This document shows, piece by piece, positions 15,603-48,607 of a stretch of DNA of 64,000 nt (position 1 is its first letter; the number at the start of each line of letters is the position of its first letter). This DNA is from Roseibacillus ishigakijimensis (GTDB taxonomy: Bacteria > Verrucomicrobiota > Verrucomicrobiia > Verrucomicrobiales > Akkermansiaceae), in assembly GCF_016595415.1 (NCBI RefSeq), contig NZ_JAENIO010000021.1, positions 1 through 64,000 of the forward strand, written 5' to 3'. The notes under the pieces are model-generated. The model did not search any database and had not been told where the DNA came from. It was given only the letters and a program-made list of their open reading frames with translations. The position numbers and the translations under genes were made by a program.

Positions 15603-15684
15603 TACCGCCGGCGGGACTCGAACCCGCACGACCAAAGGTCAATGGATTTTAAATCCACAGCGTCTACCATTCCGCCACGGCGGC
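15603..15684 (-). tRNA. tRNA-Leu (TAA)
   Basis: The minus strand gives an 82-nt cloverleaf with a variable arm of the class II type. The acceptor is GCCGCCG/CGGCGGT, the anticodon loop is TTTAAAA with anticodon TAA, and the T arm is GCGGG-TTCGAGT-CCCGC. CCA is not encoded (TTT follows the discriminator A), so the CCA-adding enzyme is required. Confidence 0.96.
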
Positions 15685-38553: not shown

Positions 38554-40281
38554 ATGTTTCGTAACGGAATCCTTACCTTTCTCCTGCTGATTCTTTCGAT
38601 GGTTTCGGCTTCCGCGCAATCTGTCAGTGAAAAGATGGATAGCTTTCTGGAGCCCATAGCCACCACGGCGGATACTGTCGTTTTCTATAGTGTTCCGGTG
38701 GGGAACGGCCATTCCGTGCCAGTGGTTCTGGTGTTGTTGGCCGCAACCGCTCTATTCCTGACTATTTACTTCAAGTTTCTCAACCTCCGGTCCCTTGGCT
38801 TGGCGGTGCGCACCGTGCGGGGGAAATACTCCAAAGACGATGACCCCGGCCAGATCACGCACTTCCAGGCTTTGGCCACCGCCTTGTCGGCCACCGTCGG
38901 GCTGGGCAATATCGCGGGGGTGGCCGTGGCCATCGGCATCGGTGGTCCCGGGGCCGTTTTCTGGATGGTGGTGATGGGTTTCCTTGGTATGAGCTCGAAG
39001 TTCACCGAGTGCACCCTGGGGGTCCGCTACCGCAAAATTGATCCCGATGGCACGGTGCACGGGGGAGGGATGCGCTATCTCCAGCAGGGGCTCGCCGAGC
39101 GTGGTTTTTCCGGCTTGGGTAAAGTGCTCGCCATTCTCTTCGCGGTGGCCTGTGTGGGCGGTGCCCTCGGGGCGGGCAACATGTTCCAGATGAATCAATC
39201 CGCCCAGCAGGTGGTGGAGACCTTCGGGATCTTTGGCGGGGGACAGGAGTGGATTCTAGGCATTCTGGTCGCAGTGGCGGTGGGCGCGGTCATTCTGGGC
39301 GGCATAGTCTCCATCGCGCGGGTGACGGCCTTTCTCGTGCCGTTCATGACCATCATTTACGTCATTGCCTGCATTGTGGTGCTGGTGGGTTATATGGGGG
39401 AAATTCCCGCCGCCTTGGGCACCATTTTTGGCGAAGCCTTTTCTCCGGAAGCTGGTCTCGGCGGCTTCATCGGCGGTCTCATTCAGGGCATCAAGCGGGG
39501 GGTCTTCTCCAATGAAGCGGGTCTCGGTTCCGCCGCTATCGCCCATGCTCCGGTGAAAACCCGCAAGCCCGCCTCGGAGGGGGTGGTCGCCCTGCTGGAG
39601 CCCTTCATCGACACCGTCATCATCTGCCTCATGACCGCGCTGGTCATCGTGGTGACCGGGGTGTGGAAGGCCGACGCCAGCCTGGCCACCGCCGCGCCCA
39701 TTTATCAGCAAGCCGACGCCCAGTCGGAAGTGCTTACCACTTTGACCGCAGGGGAATTGGTGAAGGTCGAGAAGAGTATCGCCGAGGTGGACAAAGCGGG
39801 AGATAGCTGGGTGCCGGTGCACACGCCCGACGGCGACGCCTCTGGCTTTATCGCGCGCGAGGCCGTGGTCGACCGCACCGGCTGGTCGGGGGGGATTTGG
39901 CTCACCTCGCGCTCCTTCGGGTCCGTCATCTCCTGGTTCCCCTATGTCCTGACCGTGGCGGTGGTGCTCTTTGCTTTCTCCACCATGATCTCCTGGTCCT
40001 ACTATGGCGAGCAGGCTATTGGCTACCTGACGGGTTACAATCAGCGCGCGGTCCTGGTTTATAAGGTGGTCTTCTGTCTCTGCGTGGTCCTCGGCGCGGG
40101 CGCGTCCCTGCAAAACGTGCTCAAGCTCTCCGATGCCATGTATTTCGCGATGGTTGCTCCCAATCTCATCGGGCTCTATTTCCTCCTGCCCATCGTGAAA
40201 AAGGAGCTCGCCGATTTCCAGGATTTCGCGAAGCGGGTGGATGCGGGCGCTAGCCTGGATGAAGCGGAGGACGCGCAGTAA
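38554..40281 (+). CDS. Alanine/sodium symporter (AGCS family) with an inserted SH3-like segment
   Basis: A 575-residue secondary transporter. A cleavable-looking signal (residues 1-22, ending SASAQ) precedes the AGCS core, which has ATALSATVGLGNIAGVAVA and SNEAGLGSAAIAHAPVKT. Between two late helices (nt about 39690-39880) there is an insertion of some 60 residues with the strand pattern API-YQQADAQSEVLTTLTAGELVKVEK and WVPVH...GFIAREAV, typical of a bacterial SH3 domain. Its TAA stop overlaps the ATG of the helicase gene. Ordinary AGCS proteins are about 450-500 residues. Confidence 0.9.
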   Translation: MFRNGILTFLLLILSMVSASAQSVSEKMDSFLEPIATTADTVVFYSVPVGNGHSVPVVLVLLAATALFLTIYFKFLNLRSLGLAVRTVRGKYSKDDDPGQITHFQALATALSATVGLGNIAGVAVAIGIGGPGAVFWMVVMGFLGMSSKFTECTLGVRYRKIDPDGTVHGGGMRYLQQGLAERGFSGLGKVLAILFAVACVGGALGAGNMFQMNQSAQQVVETFGIFGGGQEWILGILVAVAVGAVILGGIVSIARVTAFLVPFMTIIYVIACIVVLVGYMGEIPAALGTIFGEAFSPEAGLGGFIGGLIQGIKRGVFSNEAGLGSAAIAHAPVKTRKPASEGVVALLEPFIDTVIICLMTALVIVVTGVWKADASLATAAPIYQQADAQSEVLTTLTAGELVKVEKSIAEVDKAGDSWVPVHTPDGDASGFIAREAVVDRTGWSGGIWLTSRSFGSVISWFPYVLTVAVVLFAFSTMISWSYYGEQAIGYLTGYNQRAVLVYKVVFCLCVVLGAGASLQNVLKLSDAMYFAMVAPNLIGLYFLLPIVKKELADFQDFAKRVDAGASLDEAEDAQ

Positions 40282-42305
40282 TGGCTCGCAATTATCAACT
40301 CAATCAGCCGGAGCGAAAGGGGACCTCCGGCATCGACTACCGGGCCGCCCTCAATGACGAGCAATACGCGGCGGTCACCTCTCCCCCGGGCGCGGCGCTG
40401 GTCATTGCCGGCGCGGGCTCGGGCAAGACGCGCACTTTGACCTATCGGGTGGCCTTCCTTCTCGACCAAGGGGTCGACCCCAAGGACATCCTCCTCCTGA
40501 CTTTCACCAACAAGGCCTCGCGCGAGATGTTGGAGCGGGTCAAGGAGCTGGTCCCACGCGATCTGTCCACTCTCTGGGGAGGGACTTTCCACTCCATTGG
40601 CAATCGCATTCTGCGCCGTCATGCCGACGAGCTGGGTTTCACCCGCTCCTTCTCCATCCTCGACCGCGACGACCAGAAGTCCCTGCTCAATACCGTCGTC
40701 GCGGAGTGCGAGATCGATACCAAAGTCCGTCGTTTTCCCAAGGCCGACGTCCTCGCCACCATCTTCTCCATCATGCAGAATACCGGCGAGACGCTGGAAG
40801 AGGTGCTGGAGAGTCGCTACTCCTACTTCGGGGAATGGGGGGAAGAGATTGCCCGCATCGCCGAGCGTTACACCAGCAAGAAACAGGAGGTCAACTCCAT
40901 GGACTTCGACGATCTGCTGGTCCTCACCTTGCGCCTGCTGCAGGAGAATGAAGAGTTGCGCCATCTCTATCAGAAGCGCTTCCGCTACGTGCTGGTGGAC
41001 GAATTTCAGGACACCAACCACGTCCAGAGCGAGCTCATCGCCCTCCTCGTGGAGCGGCACAAGAGCCTGATGGTGGTGGGGGATGATGCCCAGTCCATCT
41101 ATTCCTGGCGGGGGGCGGACATGGAGAATATCCTCGGCTTTCCCGACCGTTTCGAGGGGGCCAAGGTCTTCAAGATCGAGACCAATTACCGCAGCGTGCC
41201 CGAGATCCTCAATCTCTCCAACGAGGCTATCCGCGCCAATACCCGCCAGTTTGCCAAGACCCTGCGCTCCTCCCGCGCGGCCGGCTCGGCGCCGCCCGCC
41301 CTCGTGCCGGTGGAAGACCCCACCATGCAGGCTCACTTCGTGGCCCAGCGCATCCTTGAGCTGCGTGATGAGGGCGTCGAGTTGGAGGAAATGGCCATTC
41401 TTTATCGCGCCCACCACCAGAGTATGGAGGTGCAGCTGGAGCTGACCAACCGCGGCATTCCCTTCCAGGTCACCAGCGGTCTGCGCTTCTTCGAGCAAGC
41501 CCACATCAAGGACGTGGCCGCCTTCATCCGGCTGGTGGTCAATCGTCGGGACGAAGTCAGTTTCAAGCGCCTCGTCATGCTTTTGCCCGGCATCGGCGCC
41601 AAGGGCGCGGAAAAGCTCTGGGCCGCTTGGCAGAAAACGGGCTGGGGCACGCAGGACAAACCACCGGCCAAGTTTTCCGAAAAATTGCTCGAGTTCTCCG
41701 TGGCCAAGAAAGCCCGCCCGCATTGGGAGCAGCTCGCTTACGTGTTGGACGAACTCGTCACCGGCGAGGACTTCGCCCGGCCTTCTGCCATGATTTATTC
41801 CATCCTCGAGGGACTCTACGATGGCATCATGCAGAGCAATTTCGAAAATTACGAGCAGCGGCGCGCGGATGTCGAACAGCTCATGACCTATGGGGAGGGC
41901 TTCGACGACGTGGAGGAATTCCTCGCCCAGCTCAGCTTGATGAGTTCGGTCGATGGCGAGCCCACCGGCAAAAGGGACGAGATCGATGGCGAGCAGGTCA
42001 CTTTGAGCTCCATCCACCAGGCCAAGGGACTGGAGTATAAAGTCGTCTTCGTCATCTGGCTTACCGAAGGCATGTTTCCCAACGGTCGCATTATCGACTC
42101 CGGCGACGAGGCCCAGATGGAAGAGGAGCGGCGCCTCTTCTACGTGGCTATCACCCGGGCCAAGGACGAGCTCTACCTGCTCTATCCCCAGCTCAATCCC
42201 CGCAGCTACTCCGGCGAGATTCTGCAACAGCCCTCCCGTTTTCTTGAGGATTGCCCCGCCGAGCTCATGGAGGAATGGCGTATCGGGGGCAGCAGCCCTT
42301 GGTAA
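40281..42305 (+). CDS. pcrA: UvrD/PcrA-type ATP-dependent DNA helicase
   Basis: A 674-residue superfamily 1A 3'-5' helicase. Motifs in order: GAGSGKTRTLTYR (Walker A), LTFTNKASREM, VLVDEFQDTNH (motif II), GDDAQSIYSWRGA (III), FKIETNYRSVPEI (IV), HQAKGLEYKVVFV (V) and RRLFYVAITRAKDEL (VI). The start codon overlaps the previous stop (TAATG). Such enzymes act in excision repair and in clearing replication blocks. The next gene is msrA, 109 bp downstream. Confidence 0.95.
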   Translation: MARNYQLNQPERKGTSGIDYRAALNDEQYAAVTSPPGAALVIAGAGSGKTRTLTYRVAFLLDQGVDPKDILLLTFTNKASREMLERVKELVPRDLSTLWGGTFHSIGNRILRRHADELGFTRSFSILDRDDQKSLLNTVVAECEIDTKVRRFPKADVLATIFSIMQNTGETLEEVLESRYSYFGEWGEEIARIAERYTSKKQEVNSMDFDDLLVLTLRLLQENEELRHLYQKRFRYVLVDEFQDTNHVQSELIALLVERHKSLMVVGDDAQSIYSWRGADMENILGFPDRFEGAKVFKIETNYRSVPEILNLSNEAIRANTRQFAKTLRSSRAAGSAPPALVPVEDPTMQAHFVAQRILELRDEGVELEEMAILYRAHHQSMEVQLELTNRGIPFQVTSGLRFFEQAHIKDVAAFIRLVVNRRDEVSFKRLVMLLPGIGAKGAEKLWAAWQKTGWGTQDKPPAKFSEKLLEFSVAKKARPHWEQLAYVLDELVTGEDFARPSAMIYSILEGLYDGIMQSNFENYEQRRADVEQLMTYGEGFDDVEEFLAQLSLMSSVDGEPTGKRDEIDGEQVTLSSIHQAKGLEYKVVFVIWLTEGMFPNGRIIDSGDEAQMEEERRLFYVAITRAKDELYLLYPQLNPRSYSGEILQQPSRFLEDCPAELMEEWRIGGSSPW

Positions 42306-42323
42306 TCGGGGGAGCGGGAAACC

Positions 42324-42414
42324 GGGGGGGGGGAATAAGTTTTGCCAGAGAGAACTCCTACCCAGTGAACGCCGGCTCTTCTCGGGAGGGCCGTCGTTCA
42401 CAACCCCAACGATT
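42324..42414 (+). promoter_or_regulatory. msrA 5' leader with a ten-G run and a long hairpin
   Basis: A run of ten G occurs at 42324-42333. A hairpin follows: GTGAACG (42365-42371) pairs with CGTTCAC (42395-42401) and, after one mismatch, CGGCTC with GGGCCG, closing a nine-base loop that contains GGGA. It ends 13 bases before the msrA ATG. No T tract follows, so it is more likely a translational control element or mRNA-stability hairpin than a terminator. No clear Shine-Dalgarno is seen near the ATG. Confidence 0.5.
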
Positions 42415-43143
42415 ATGACAAGACTAGGAGCCTTCGGGGCTGAACAACTGGTGAAAGAGGACGGCAAAGTGGCTGCGACCGCTTTGCCCTTCGACAAAGT
42501 GAATTCCGAGGTCGCCTTCGAGACCGCGACCTTTGGCATGGGATGATTCTGGGGACCGGATTCCGAGTTCGGAAGCCTCCCAGGAGTGTTGCGCACGCGG
42601 GTCGGTTACGCGGGCGGAACGAAAGAAAAGCCGACCTACCGTTCCATGGGTGATCACACCGAGGCCGTGTCCATCGACTACGACCCGGCGGTGACCAGCT
42701 ACGAGGACCTGCTTGGCGAGTTTTGGCTCGGTCACCGTTGCGACTCCCTCAATCACAGTCGGCAATACATGAAAGCGGTGTTCTATCGCGATGAGCAGCA
42801 GCGCCAGGCGGCCCTCGAGTCGCGTGACCGCGAGGCCCACCGTCTCGGCCTGGGCACCGAAGAGGTCCGCACCGAAGTGCTGCCGGTGAACGCCTTCACC
42901 TACGCGGAGGGCTACCATCAGAAGTATGTTCTCTCGCGCAAGGGCGAGATCCGGCTCTTTCTGGAGCAACTCTATCCGACGGCCAAGGCCTTGGCGGATT
43001 CCACCGTCGCCACCCGCCTCAATGCCTATCTGGGCTCGGGGCTGAAGCTCGACTGGGCTGCCTTTGCCGAGGAGCTGCCGGAATACAAGTTACCGGAATT
43101 TGTGGCCGGACGTCTCCAAGTCATGGCCGAAAGCCGTCGCTGA
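42415..43143 (+). CDS. msrA: Peptide methionine (S)-S-oxide reductase with selenocysteine encoded by in-frame TGA
   Basis: A 242-codon gene read through a TGA at 42544-42546 (codon 44). MsrA reduces methionine-S-sulfoxide with a catalytic cysteine in GCFWG. Here that codon is TGA: the flanks read FETATFGMG-TGA-FWGPDSEFG and continue in frame with LPGVLRTRVGYAGGTK, HTEAVSIDYDP, QYMKAVFYRDE and AEGYHQKYVLSRKG, all family signatures. A stem-loop starts three bases after the TGA. TGA is a normal stop nearby (for example the pqiA genes), so code reassignment is excluded. Only one other Cys (near 109) remains, so the resolving step may use an external reductant. A decayed gene is unlikely because nothing else is damaged. 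Confidence 0.85.
42544..42583 (+). promoter_or_regulatory. Bacterial SECIS-like element of msrA
   Basis: Directly after the TGA, the mRNA can fold as an irregular hairpin (42549-42583). The upper stem is UUCCG/CGGAA with apical loop AGUU at 42566-42569. Below lie GG/CC and a CUGGG/CCCAG stem, interrupted by small bulges. The loop begins 19 bases after the TGA and has G at its second position. Known bacterial SECIS elements place a short G-containing loop roughly 16-37 bases downstream of the UGA, so geometry and loop agree. SelB binding is inferred. Confidence 0.7.
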
Positions 43144-43164: not shown

Positions 43165-44598
43165 TCAATGGGAGCGTCGCCAAGTGCGGCGCTTCCATTC
43201 TTTTTCGGTGAGGCCGGCGATAGGAGTCGTCATCCAAACAAGATCGCCTTGGTCCATTTTTGCGGGGGTGCCGCCATCGTCTTTACCATCAGGTCCGATC
43301 GACCACAGCCAAGGCGAGCCATCGGCTTTCCGTTGGTAGTGGAAGGGCTTCCCTGTGTAGGGATCCAGCAGGGTAGGAAAATCCAGCTCCGCAAGGGTGG
43401 CGGGATAATGTCCCTGTTTATGGCGATGGATTTCCAAGGCGATGCCCAGTCGGGCGAGGCGGAGAAGAACTTCCGCTTTCATGAGTTTTGTGGCCGCTTT
43501 TAGAAAGGGGGAGTTGTAGCTTGGCGCAAAGAAGTCGCCGGGGAACCGGGCCTTTGACCGTGGGTATTGGTAGGAACGCAAGTGATGAAGTGGCTCGGTG
43601 GCTACGGTTTCTGCGAGGTCGTGGGTTTGAAAGAAGACACTCGCTTTACCTAGGTCATTCCAACCTGGCATATAGGGCACAATGATTTGTTCGCTTTCGG
43701 GATGGGCGAGGAAAAAAGCGAGCTCTCCCTTGAGGCTGTTTGCGAAGTTATTGGGTAGTGAGATTTTCGACAACTCCGCGTTAAGCACTTCGAGTTGGTC
43801 TAAATCGAGTTGTTGGCTGATGACTGCTTCCCAGAGGCTGATTTCCAAAAATTGAATGCAACTAAATTGGTAAAGAACTGAAAGTAAGGTCGGAAAATGA
43901 GCCGAATTGATGATCGAAATCTGCCAGCGTAAATTGGCGAAAGCTCGCTCAGCATCGTTATGGGCGAGAGCAAGGGCTGTGTCGTCGGAAAGAACCTCAC
44001 CGAGTCCGTGTAGGCTGGAGAAATACTTGAGGTATTGATTCATCTGGCCAAGTAGCTCTCTTTCGGGATCTTCTAAGGAGAAAACGAGCGGCTGGCTGGG
44101 ATCGTGACTGCGGAGTTTGGCCAAGGTGGTTCCGAATTCGCTGGTGAGAATTTTGTCGAGTTCGGTCGCGGCCTCTTGCGGGTCCGAGATTCCCTTCGCG
44201 GGGTCAAGCCATTGCACGATGTCGCGGGGCTGCGCTTGCCAACGATTGTGGTCTCGCCGCGCGGCTTCCCGGCCAGTCGAGGTGTGATTCAGTCCGGCGT
44301 GCCTTTGGTAAATGAGAAGTTTGAGGCTTTTTGTCCGGGTCCCATCCAGACCGGGCAAGGTAGTTGGGTCGATGGCTCCGGGTGGGCGTTCCGGGACGTA
44401 GCTCTGGAGGTCCAAGCTCACTCTCGCCGCACGCAGATCTTGCTGCGCCTGGTCCCAAGCCCGCTGTCCCCGCCAGTTTTCAACGAAATAAAAGGCGGCA
44501 ACGAGAACGAGAACCACCCACGGCCCCCAGATGAGTAGGGGCTTCCAAGGAATTTTGTGCACGAAAAGCCAGAGAGCCTTATTGAGCGAGCGGCGCAT
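43165..44598 (-). CDS. Membrane-anchored protein with pseudopilin-like C-terminus, unknown function
   Basis: A 477-residue protein from the ATG at 44598. One transmembrane helix lies at residues about 20-42 (LLIWGPWVVLVLVAAFYFVE). The long middle part is helical and unrecognised. The C-terminal 90 residues contain IHRHKQGHYPATLAEL, DPYTGKPFHYQRKADGS and WSIGPDGKDDGG, a pattern seen in type II secretion pseudopilin G tails. Proteins with this tail are common in Planctomycetes/Verrucomicrobia. An internal hydrophobic segment around 44000 carries several aromatic residues. It is convergent with msrA. Confidence 0.75.
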   Translation of the reverse strand: MRRSLNKALWLFVHKIPWKPLLIWGPWVVLVLVAAFYFVENWRGQRAWDQAQQDLRAARVSLDLQSYVPERPPGAIDPTTLPGLDGTRTKSLKLLIYQRHAGLNHTSTGREAARRDHNRWQAQPRDIVQWLDPAKGISDPQEAATELDKILTSEFGTTLAKLRSHDPSQPLVFSLEDPERELLGQMNQYLKYFSSLHGLGEVLSDDTALALAHNDAERAFANLRWQISIINSAHFPTLLSVLYQFSCIQFLEISLWEAVISQQLDLDQLEVLNAELSKISLPNNFANSLKGELAFFLAHPESEQIIVPYMPGWNDLGKASVFFQTHDLAETVATEPLHHLRSYQYPRSKARFPGDFFAPSYNSPFLKAATKLMKAEVLLRLARLGIALEIHRHKQGHYPATLAELDFPTLLDPYTGKPFHYQRKADGSPWLWSIGPDGKDDGGTPAKMDQGDLVWMTTPIAGLTEKEWKRRTWRRSH

Positions 44599-44733
44599 GA
44601 TGGCAGTCAAAGGGAGAGAGCTTGCGGCGACGAGGATTTTTTCTTCTGAGCTCGGAAAGGCACCTCAGTTCTTCGGATTTCTCAACCTGCTCTTTTATCA
44701 GAATAGGCTCCTGGCTTTGGATGGAAGATATAG

Positions 44734-46302
44734 CTATTTCGTTCCGATGCTGGCGGGGTCGCCGAAGAGATAACCTTTTGCCAAGTTGGTAAAAGTGGTG
44801 ACTTGCTCGTCGATCCATGAGTCGTCTTGGCCCAATTCTTCGGCCATGATTCGCGCCACGGTGGGGGCGGCGGCGATGCTGGCGCGGGCATTGAGCAGGA
44901 GACTGCGGCTGCGACGGGCGAGGACGTCCTCGACGGTGCGGGCCATCTCCTCGCGCACATGCCAACGCACTTCGCCCCGGGTGAGAGTGAGATCGTCATG
45001 GACGCGATCGGGTTCGCCGAGGGCGCGGATGGCCTGGGCGTCTGCCCCGTAGGGCCGCAGGTGGGGCTCGGGGATGTCGCCACGGGTCCAGCCATGGATT
45101 TGCAAGGACTCGGTTTCGCAACGCTTGTGGTCGGTTCCGGCGACCATCTCGGCCTGGTCGATGACGTCCTCGGCCATTTTGCGGTAGGTGGTCCACTTGC
45201 CCCCGGTGACGGTGAGGAGTCCGCTGTTGCTGACCACGATGGTGTGGTCGCGCGAGATGGCGGCGGTGTCGGAATCATCGCCCTCGCTCACCAGCGGGCG
45301 CAGTCCGGCAAAGACGCTCAGCACGTCTTCCGGGGTGGGGTCCTTGGTGAGGTATTGCGCGGCGTGCTCCATCACGAAGTCGATTTCCTCCGCCAAGGCC
45401 CGGGGCTCCAGCGACTTTTCCTCCAGGGGGGTATCCGTGGTGCCGACGACGACGCAATCGTGCCAGGGGACGGCAAAGAGAACGCGTCCGTCGGCGGTTT
45501 TGGGAATCATGATCGCGGAGTTCCCGGGGAGAAATTCCTTGGGCAAGACGAGGTGGATGCCTTGGCTGACGGTGACCATGGCCTTGGCGGAGGCGTCATC
45601 GGCAGCGCGTAGTTCGTCGACGAAGATGCCGGTGGCGTTGATCACGCAGCGGGCGGGAATGGTGAACTCCTCGTCGCTCTCAAGGTCGGTGGCCTTCACT
45701 CCAGAGACGAGGCCGTCTTCTTTCTCCAAACCCGTGCAGCGGGCGTAGTTGACGACGCGGGCACCCAGTCCGGCGGCGGTTTGGGCGAGGTTGACCGCGA
45801 GGCGGGAGTCATCGAACTGGCCGTCGTGGTATTTCACCCCGCCCGAGAGATTTTCCGTTTCCACGGTGGGGATAGCGGCGATCGTTTCTTCCTTGGAAAG
45901 CCAGCGGCTGGGACCGAGGCCGAGTTTGCCGGCCAGTTGATCGTAGACCTTCATCCCGATGCCGTAGAAAGGGCCTTCCCACCAGCTGTAGTTGGGGATG
46001 ACGAAGGAGAGATCGTGCACGAGGTGGGGCGCATTGCGGGTCAGGCGACCGCGCTCACGTAGGGCTTCCAGCACCAGTGAGACATTGCCCTGTTGCAGGT
46101 AGCGGACCCCGCCGTGGACCAGTTTGGTGGAGCGGGAGGAGGTGCCCTTGGCGAAGTCGGCTTGTTCCAGCAAGACCACCGAGTGGCCCCGGGAGGCGGC
46201 GTCGACAGCGGCACCCAGGCCGGTGGCTCCGCCGCCGATGATGCAGAAGTCGTAGGGTTCGCGGGCGGTTCGAATGTGGTTGAGGGCGGTTTCTCGGTTC
46301 AT
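44734..46302 (-). CDS. glpD: Aerobic glycerol-3-phosphate dehydrogenase
   Basis: A 522-residue FAD enzyme of the inner membrane that oxidises glycerol-3-phosphate to DHAP and passes electrons to quinone. The N-terminal dinucleotide-binding motif is [19 protein letters not shown], followed by [17 protein letters not shown]. The C-terminal domain has [17 protein letters not shown]. Its ATG overlaps the glpK stop by four bases (ATGA), so translation is coupled. Third gene of glpF-glpK-glpD. Confidence 0.96.
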
Positions 46303-47804
46303 GCTTTTTCGTTTTCTTCCTCTAAGAGTTCCCAGTCTTTGGCGCGTTCCACCGCGCGCTTCCAGCCGGAGATCAATTTGTCCATTTCTTCACGGGGTCG
46401 TTGGGCGGTGAAGCGCGCTCCTTCTTTCTGGCGCGACTTGATATCCTCCTTGCTTTCCCAAAAGCCGACCGCGAGCCCGGCGAGATAGGCGGCCCCCATC
46501 GCGGTGGTTTCGACGTTTTCCGGGCGCACGACATCGACCCCGAGGAGATCCGCTTGGAATTGCATGAGGGGTTCGCTGCGGGAGGCCCCGCCATCGACGC
46601 GCAATTCGGTGAGTTCAATGCCGCTGTCGCGGCTCATGGCCACCGCGAGGTCGCCGCTCTGGAAGGCCACCGACTCGAGGGCGGCCCGGCAGAAATGCTG
46701 GCGGTTTGAGCCCCGGGTCATGCCCACGCAGGTGCCGCGGGCGTGGGGGTCCCAGTGGGGCGCGCCCAGCCCGGCGAAGGCGGGGACGAGATACATCCCG
46801 TTGGCGTCAGGCACTTGCGCGGCCAGCTCGCTGCATTCCTCGGCGGAGGAGACGAGCTGGAGTTCGTCGCGCAGCCATTGCACCACCGCGCCGCCGATGA
46901 AGACCGAGCCCTCGAGGGCGTATTCGGTCTTGTCGCCGATGCGCCAGGCGATGGTGGTGACGAGATTGTTCTGCGAGCGGATGGCTTCCTCGCCGGTATT
47001 CATCAGGAAAAAGCAGCCGGTGCCGTAGGTGTTTTTGCCCATCCCGCGCTCGAAGCAGGCCTGCCCGAAGAGAGCGGCGTGCTGGTCGCCCGCGATGCCC
47101 GCGATGGGCACGTTTTTGGTGGATTTTCCGTAAACTTCGCTGCTGCCTTTGACCTCCGGCAGCAGGGCGGCGGGGATGTCGAGAATCTGCAGAAGCTCTT
47201 CGTCCCATTTGTTGTCGTGAATGTTGTAGAGGAGGGTGCGGGAGGCATTGGTGGCGTCGGTGATGTGGACTTCGCCGCCGGTCAGCTTCCAGACCAGCCA
47301 GCTATCGATGGTGCCAAAGAGGAGATCGCCGGCCTCGGCTTGTTCGCGCGCGCCCTCCACGTTTTCCAAAATCCAGTGCAGCTTGGTGCCGGAGAAATAG
47401 GGATCGAGGAGGAGCCCGGTCTTGTCGCGGAAAGTTTGTTCGTGGCCGGCTTTTTTCAGTCTGGCGCAAATGTTGGCGGTGCGGCGGTCTTGCCACACGA
47501 TGGCGTTGTAGACGGGCTTGCTGGTGTGGCGGTTCCAGACCACGGTGGTCTCGCGTTGATTGGTGATGCCGATGGCCGCGAGGTCGCGGTGGCGCAGGTC
47601 GGCCTTGCTGAGGGCCTCGGCTTCGGTGGCGGATTGGGTGGACCAGATTTCCATCGGGTCGTGCTCCACCCAGCCCGGTTTGGGGTAAATTTGCTGGAAT
47701 TCCGACTGGCTGACGGCGACCACTTCGCCCGCGTGGTTGACCACGAGGGCTCGCGAGCTGGTGGTGCCCTGATCGAGGGCGAGGATGAATTGTTCGGTTT
47801 TCAT
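46299..47804 (-). CDS. glpK: Glycerol kinase
   Basis: A 501-residue FGGY kinase phosphorylating glycerol. It starts [20 protein letters not shown] and contains [29 protein letters not shown] and a C-terminal [20 protein letters not shown]. Residues match normal length. An in-frame extension further upstream (to 48068) overlaps glpF and is not coding. It lies 29 bp after glpF and overlaps glpD. Confidence 0.97.
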
Positions 47805-47833
47805 GGTTTTGGCAAAAGGGGGAAGGAGAGCAA

Positions 47834-48607
47834 TTACTGGGGAAAGAGGGCGCGAAAGAGGAGGGCTCCCAGTGGCCCGCCGACGAGAGGGGCAACGACT
47901 GGAAGCCAGGCGTATCCCCAGTCCGAGGAGCCTTTTCCGGCGATGGGGAGGAGCTGGTGGGCCAGGCGGGGACCGAGGTCGCGGGCGGGATTGATGGCAT
48001 AGCCAGTGGGTCCGCCGAGGGAGAGACCGACGGCGAGGACCAATAGACCGACGAGGAAGGGGCTCCACCAGGTAGCCACCACTCCGGCCAGAGAAGTGGG
48101 AATGGCGGTGGCCTCGGGCAACTCGGCGGCGGGAATTCCGGCCCCGATTTGGCCCACTGACAGAACGCCAAAAACGAGCATGGCGGTGCCGATGACTTCA
48201 TTGAGGAAAGCCGGGCCGAGGCGGGGAATGGCAGGAGTGGTGCAGAAACAGGCCCGCTTCCCCTCGGCATCATCGGTCTCTTCCCAATGGGCCAGATAGC
48301 TGAGCCAGACGAGGCTGGCCCCGGTTGCGGCTCCGGCAACTTGGGCGAGGACATACCCCGGCACCTGGAACCAGGCGAAGTCGCCAATCACGGCCAAGGC
48401 CAGGGTCACGGCGGGATTGATGTGTGCTCCCGAGATGTGACCGACGGCGATGATGGCAAAGGCGACCGCCAGGCCCCAACCCGAGGTGATGACCAGCCAA
48501 CCGCTGTTCTGGCCTTTGCTTTTGTTGAGCACCACATTGGCCACCACTCCATTGCCCAGGAGGATGAGAATGGCGGTGCCTACGAATTCGGCGAGGTAGG
48601 GGTTCAT
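47834..48607 (-). CDS. glpF: Glycerol uptake facilitator (aquaglyceroporin)
   Basis: A 257-residue MIP-family channel with six helices. The two NPA boxes are [12 protein letters not shown] (first half) and [11 protein letters not shown] (second half), where the Asp after NPAR favours glycerol-type selectivity. It is the first gene of the operon that takes up, phosphorylates and oxidises glycerol. The promoter presumably lies in the 300-bp region upstream. Confidence 0.95.

Follow-up and report, generated by a model that had tools for sequence, protein, structure and literature searches.

In ordinary peptide methionine-S-sulfoxide reductases (MsrA), the catalytic residue is a cysteine within the motif GCFWG. 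The selenocysteine (Sec) variants of this enzyme are recognised prokaryotic selenoproteins, for which a 2026 review, in the part available to us, gives the motif GUFWG/H (PMC13188914). The closest described system is the enzyme from Clostridium (Alkaliphilus) oremlandii (CoMsrA; structures 4LWJ, 4LWK, 4LWL, 4LWM and 4U66). According to the accessible sections of the two papers concerned, its Sec form has 20 times the activity of the Cys counterpart, its helical domain is required for active-site formation (PMC4333827, PMC4479559), Glu55 acts as the proton donor (PMC4479559) and recycling relies on glutaredoxin, not on thioredoxin (PMC4333827). Among marine sequences, the available portion of the Global Ocean Sampling selenoproteome reports nine Sec-MsrA sequences from marine metagenomes (marine MsrA selenoproteins which, going by their description, are like the one in this work; PMC2398784). 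The corresponding portion of a Sargasso Sea study reports a single MsrA, taken as eukaryotic, and describes the bacterial SECIS element as a hairpin just 3' of the UGA, within the coding region, with a small apical loop containing a G (PMC1088965).

Here we analyse a gene from a stretch of 64,000 nucleotides (hereafter the window) of the genome of Roseibacillus ishigakijimensis. Judging from its sequence and from those of its relatives, this gene almost certainly encodes a Sec-containing peptide methionine-S-sulfoxide reductase of the C. oremlandii type, and is a well-supported further Sec-MsrA of a family already known from other bacteria (Table 1). A first-pass annotation, made from the letters alone, had proposed that an in-frame TGA replaces the catalytic cysteine codon of an MsrA in a frame that stays open for 242 codons, that ordinary annotation would start at 42586 and miss the catalytic site, and that a SECIS-like hairpin lies directly downstream; it had also suggested searching the genome for selA, selB, selD and tRNA-Sec and aligning the homologues. 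The first points are borne out by the translation of the forward strand (MTRLG...TATFGMG-U-FWGPDSEFG..., 242 residues including U at codon 44), which is family-like on both sides of the TGA. The Pfam PMSR domain (PF01625) spans residues 37-175 (6.9e-36, with U read as Cys) and its match runs across codon 44, so that the family homology continues through the TGA; an in-frame UGA is thus found where homologues carry Cys, as expected of a bacterial selenoprotein. The terminal stop is also TGA (43141-43143), so UGA would have two meanings within one gene if read through, and the recoding must be local. As anticipated, the translation table 11 list of open reading frames (ORFs) cuts the frame in two (42244..42546, with a TTG start and ending on the TGA, and 42586..43143, with a GTG start and 185 residues), and the downstream part is left without the active site; such lists sever msrA at its active site in Verrucomicrobiales. 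Against the NCBIfam msrA model TIGR00401, the window protein scores 103.4 bits, just short of the cut-off of 108.1 bits. Residues 31-144 of P0001 also match weakly, at 8.1e-11 and 42.1 bits (cut-off 275), the NCBIfam model NF041383 ("VPGUxxT family thioredoxin-like (seleno)protein, type 2").

Table 1. Coordinates of the features of the msrA locus in the window.
Feature	Position	Strand	Basis or remark
msrA, Sec type	42415..43143	+	242 aa, own stop TGA
TGA putatively read as Sec, residue 44, catalytic position of GUFWG	42544..42546	+	
Bacterial SECIS-type hairpin within the coding sequence	42558..42577	+	Predicted fold, register and pair counts, codon conservation
Apical loop AGUU, 19 nt after the UGA	42566..42569	+	Loop counts in 79 sequences
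Glu83, aligned to the CoMsrA proton donor Glu55	42661..42663	+	Glu in 79/79 sequences
Cys109, candidate second (resolving) thiol, putative function	42739..42741	+	
C-terminal helical domain, approximate start	42943..43140	+	As in CoMsrA; alignment and model

The likeness to CoMsrA includes its helical domain. An AlphaFold2 model (built with 52 sequences) has a mean pLDDT of 95.5 and a pTM of 0.91, and its top structural match is the full-length CoMsrA 4lwk (Z 25.4, rmsd 2.9, 204 residues), with the other MsrA entries at Z 13-19. By sequence, the best solved relatives are likewise the C. oremlandii MsrA chains (4u66, 4lwj, 7c13 and others; 7.8e-46 at best, query residues 36-229), and the alignment to CoMsrA residues 6-209 takes in the C-terminal helical domain. 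Both proteins share the Sec position, the motif (A/M)LG/GMG-U-FWGPD, the two-domain architecture with its C-terminal helical domain and the equivalent Glu, at an identity of about 39% over the aligned length. The ordinary Cys enzymes from E. coli (1FF3) and M. tuberculosis (1NWA) have the same catalytic domain fold; however, they align on this domain only, and carry Cys where the window protein has Sec. Membership in the PMSR family is therefore seen both in the sequence match given above and in the fold (Z 13-25 to the listed MsrA structures).

One could still suppose that the Sec-protein is made and that its activity on methionine sulfoxide has been lost, because the window protein has HRCD where classical MsrA has HDPT (presumably the usual loop, with Asp129 in E. 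coli) and that Asp is missing from its place. We consider this very unlikely, since CoMsrA also lacks that Asp (its loop reads HNP) and is nevertheless an active reductase, as the available text of PMC4333827 states, and since Phe45, Trp46, Glu83 and Tyr118 are found in 79/79 sequences and Tyr65 in 78/79. Returning to an active Sec-MsrA, what is known of CoMsrA and of the way bacteria insert Sec leads us to infer that the organism does place Sec at this codon, that the enzyme is active and how it is reduced, and the chemistry would be the same as in CoMsrA. The hairpin right after the UGA, within the coding sequence, would recruit SelB with Sec-tRNA(Sec), so that the UGA at codon 44 would give selenocysteine and the terminal UGA would still end translation. 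The selenol of Sec44 would attack the sulfoxide of an oxidised methionine, with Glu83 assisting, and methionine would be released; the oxidised selenium of Sec44 would then be reduced by a cellular thiol system.

The search for the Sec machinery found all four components in the window genome (a draft of 4.14 Mb in 192 contigs, 95% complete), as is to be expected where a bacterial selenoprotein is made. The tRNA-Sec (selC) scores 66.4 bits, over the cut-off, and is called SeC with anticodon TCA by ARAGORN; SelB (6.9e-98), SelA (9.7e-134) and SelD (2.5e-109) all lie over their curated cut-offs. The selD gene (G000:C131:31892-32821; L048:1501-2430) has an in-frame TGA of its own at TELSSCAG-U-ASK, which we take to be where SelD proteins usually carry Sec; at least two selenoprotein genes thus seem to be present in the genome, with selD as the probable second. 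Two further matches were discarded: a second SelB-like one adjoining selA (G000:C150), which resembles EF-Tu by eye, and a weak tRNA-Sec match within the window (15604-15684), which is a tRNA-Leu. It might be argued that the UGA yields an amino acid different from Sec, through a genome-wide reassignment to Trp or through near-cognate readthrough (Trp, Cys or Arg), and UGA readthrough independent of SelB does occur in bacteria. This seems extremely unlikely, as msrA itself terminates in TGA, the tRNA-Sec, SelA, SelB and the TGA-containing SelD are all present, and codon 44 aligns with the catalytic Cys, Cys being also the sole natural substitute found at this codon.

For a codon read as Sec, a SECIS element would be expected, and the hairpin claimed from the sequence alone is supported here by conservation at the RNA level. 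It lies just 3' of the UGA and its small loop contains a G, as in the bacterial elements described. Among 79 sequences, the apical loop is AGUU in 74, GGUU in four and AAUU in one, (A/G)GUU thus holding in 78/79. Codons 50 and 51 are near-frozen (same-codon fractions of 0.90 and 0.97, against a mean of 0.40 over 210 columns), and residues 48-55 differ from the rest in this measure (p = 0.007), with positions 48 and 55 individually ordinary. The hairpin occurs in two registers, in which the codon of glycine 53 tracks the codon of residue 51. With Glu at residue 51 (GAG, n=34), a pair is possible between the G of this codon and the third base of codon 52, and glycine 53 is encoded by GGA in 32 sequences, by GGC in one and by GGT in one. 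With Gln or Arg at residue 51 (CAG, CAA or CGG), the possible pair joins the C of this codon to the first base of codon 53, and GGG encodes glycine 53 in 44/44; the single sequence with AAG has GGT. The four core pairs are formed in 134/136 cells of the Glu group and in 175/180 of the other group, and these proportions fall to 50% (Glu group) and 75% (other group) of cells if the registers are swapped between the groups. The outer pairs hold less well than those of the core (35/45 and 28/45 in one register, 24/34 and 31/34 in the other). A link between Glu or Gln and a synonymous glycine codon is demanded by RNA pairing and not by protein constraint. On the tree, residue 51 toggles between Glu and non-Glu seven times; well-supported branches provide three independent pairs, and in these the glycine codon changes along with it in nearly all of 200 pairings, although so small a number of pairs does not allow significance to be reached (sign test p 0.25).

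Folding energy alone was dropped as evidence for a SECIS element: against synonymous-codon shuffles, the hairpin of the window sequence is not unusually stable (z +0.47, 132/200 shuffles being as stable). Across all 79 sequences z has a median of -1.43, with 94% of them falling under the mean of their shuffles. The signal of the hairpin, as read from these sequences, is one of conservation and not of energy, and its two registers offer a natural experiment on what SelB requires of a bacterial SECIS.

The alignment of homologues also gave TGA at this codon within the family to which the genome belongs. In a sample of 195 family genomes (the window's own included), 36 carry a close homologue (identity 54-100%) interrupted by a single in-frame TGA, and the TGA sits at the identical codon in 30/30 loci read, drawn from these 36. 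In one further genome (G125) the match begins after the TGA codon. Beyond these, the matches fall from 4e-68 to 2e-25, with identities of at most 46%, and nearly all of the weaker matches listed are without a stop, the exceptions being G095 (TGA) and G012, G027 and G085 (TAG or TAA). In a phylum-wide sample of 387 genomes, only the window's genome and G024 matched at E <= 1e-50; the family search was preferred because the family members listed in the phylum-wide sample mostly belong to one other genus. A distant MsrA-like gene without stops also exists in the window genome (G000:C108:33453-33890, 37% identity, in a frame of 334 aa), so the Sec-MsrA is probably an extra paralogue there.

Within the same 195 genomes, selB (E <= 1e-60) was found in 69 and tRNA-Sec (E <= 1e-9) in 48. 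The first is strongly associated with the TGA-containing gene, being present in 32/36 genomes that carry it versus 37/159 others (Fisher 2e-13, with genomes treated as independent), and selB and/or tRNA-Sec is present in 35/36; G041, G139 and G159 have tRNA-Sec without a selB match, and in the 88% complete draft G120, which has the TGA gene, neither was found at the thresholds used. There are 37 selB-positive genomes without a full-length TGA-MsrA (among them G125 and G011), and genomes can hence have the Sec trait without this gene. G011, which is of the window's genus, has selB and tRNA-Sec and is without a close Sec-MsrA, possibly because the gene was lost inside the genus or is missing from the draft.

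Outside this sample, a scan of named genomes confirmed 106 relatives, of which the best 80 were analysed. The seed patterns of the scan sit downstream of the TGA, so that neither TGA nor Cys was selected by them. Loci that have the common motif are favoured by one pattern (FWGPDS[EQ]F), and L148 (FWGPDAR) or a similar Cys form could be picked up only through the other. Two loci that stop short of the codon (L087 and L102) were left out of the counts, and the TGA is present in 78/78 of those that reach it. By record title, these loci come from nine phyla (Verrucomicrobiota, Chloroflexota, Nitrospirota, Planctomycetota, Thermodesulfobacteriota, Myxococcota, Acidobacteriota, Calditrichota and Bacillota). 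Verrucomicrobiota labels account for 50/78, and L083, titled only "Bacterium", is placed inside their clade; a well-supported branch (SH-aLRT 96 in a quick tree) separates the Verrucomicrobiota sequences from the rest. The isolate Roseibacillus persicicus KCTC 12988 (L051) has the TGA form and its genome has selB, so that a cultured representative exists in which Sec use is testable; the locus L018 (from G024, of the window's genus) is whole and identical within L051. In six genomes of named loci, selB lies over the cut-off in five, and the sixth (G543, with L105) has tRNA-Sec.

In a draft of 192 contigs the TGA might be suspected of being a mistake of sequencing or assembly, or a nonsense mutation in a pseudogene, but this reading is refuted by the comparative data (the same TGA in the family genomes and in the named relatives, independent assemblies with an isolate among them, and codon changes relative to R. 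persicicus that, over the 185 codons after the TGA, concentrate at third positions, with 39, 33 and 91 at positions 1-3), and its probability is practically nil. Before the TGA (34 codons) the changes number 11, 6 and 12, with no clear third-position excess, so the conservation of the frame there shows better in the protein alignment.

The Cys form was met in Chloroflexota. Among 396 genomes of the class of G545 (the genome of locus L110, titled Anaerolineae, Chloroflexota), 25 matches were obtained at E < 1e-70; of the 20 loci read, 19 have TGA (including L152, a copy frame-shifted after the codon) and one has TGC, and the remaining five show one TGA each in the search output. These counts overlap with those of the named scan, since some genomes gave loci to both. 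The exception, L148 (G835, Chloroflexota), is a natural Cys form with TGC for TGA and without the AGUU loop (its fold is also stable, with a different loop), and it may represent a Sec-to-Cys change; no selB exceeds the cut-off in G835, where tRNA-Sec passes marginally (50.6 bits, cut-off 47). Both components were checked in 19 of the 25 genomes (G835 and 18 with the TGA gene). Each of the 18 has at least one of the two, selB over the cut-off being found in 14/18 (not in G543, G597, G748 and G834) and tRNA-Sec in 14/18 (not in G545, G753, G772 and G793). The CoMsrA-type subfamily is nearly, and not entirely, Sec-only in our sample, the enzyme being almost always Sec-encoded across the nine phyla.

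The first-pass annotation had also supposed that reports of such enzymes from Verrucomicrobiota are few. As far as the literature goes this fits: no report of a Sec-MsrA in Verrucomicrobia was among the papers listed by our searches of the open-licence literature (one may be in print elsewhere), the name has 0 occurrences in the main text of PMC2398784, and a word search of the accessible text of PMC5029168, PMC12013277, PMC9312934 and PMC5330540 gave no mention. The gene itself is not rare there, as the share of Verrucomicrobiota among the named loci indicates. These findings place a probable selenium-dependent protein-repair enzyme in Verrucomicrobiales, in Roseibacillus, Rubritalea and uncultured Akkermansiaceae (by record title).

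In one respect the window protein departs from CoMsrA, which has no Cys beyond the Sec site and is glutaredoxin-recycled (PMC4333827, in the part available): it has Cys109, a further Cys of a kind that the 1-Cys type lacks. In the alignment, this residue occupies the place of Pro in the CoMsrA HNP, just ahead of the L2 loop; a second candidate site, Cys66, follows the GY of GYxGG. Cys66 and/or a Cys at 107-112 is present in 50/52 verrucomicrobial sequences (the window and L083 counted in; L101 and L107 have neither) versus 8/27 from other phyla, an enrichment that rests mostly on one clade. An apparent complementarity between Cys66 and Cys107-112, suggested by the raw counts, was set aside as unsupported on the tree (with four independent pairs whose branches are well supported, the median p is 1). 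An extra Cys that is absent from CoMsrA and lies in or near active-site motifs is possibly a new feature. As a tentative and rather doubtful extension, the verrucomicrobial Sec-MsrAs might have gained a resolving Cys near the active site, which would form an internal selenenylsulfide and allow recycling by thioredoxin, unlike the glutaredoxin-dependent CoMsrA.

Concerning the gene neighbourhood, tblastn at 1e-5 with the flanking proteins (40281-42305 and 43165-44610) found nothing in 13 related loci, while the MsrA, used as a control, matched in 13/13, and therefore there is no conserved context within the flanks examined. Further along the window (44734-48607, minus strand), three genes resemble, by eye, those for glycerol-3-phosphate dehydrogenase, glycerol kinase and the glycerol facilitator, an apparent glp cluster.
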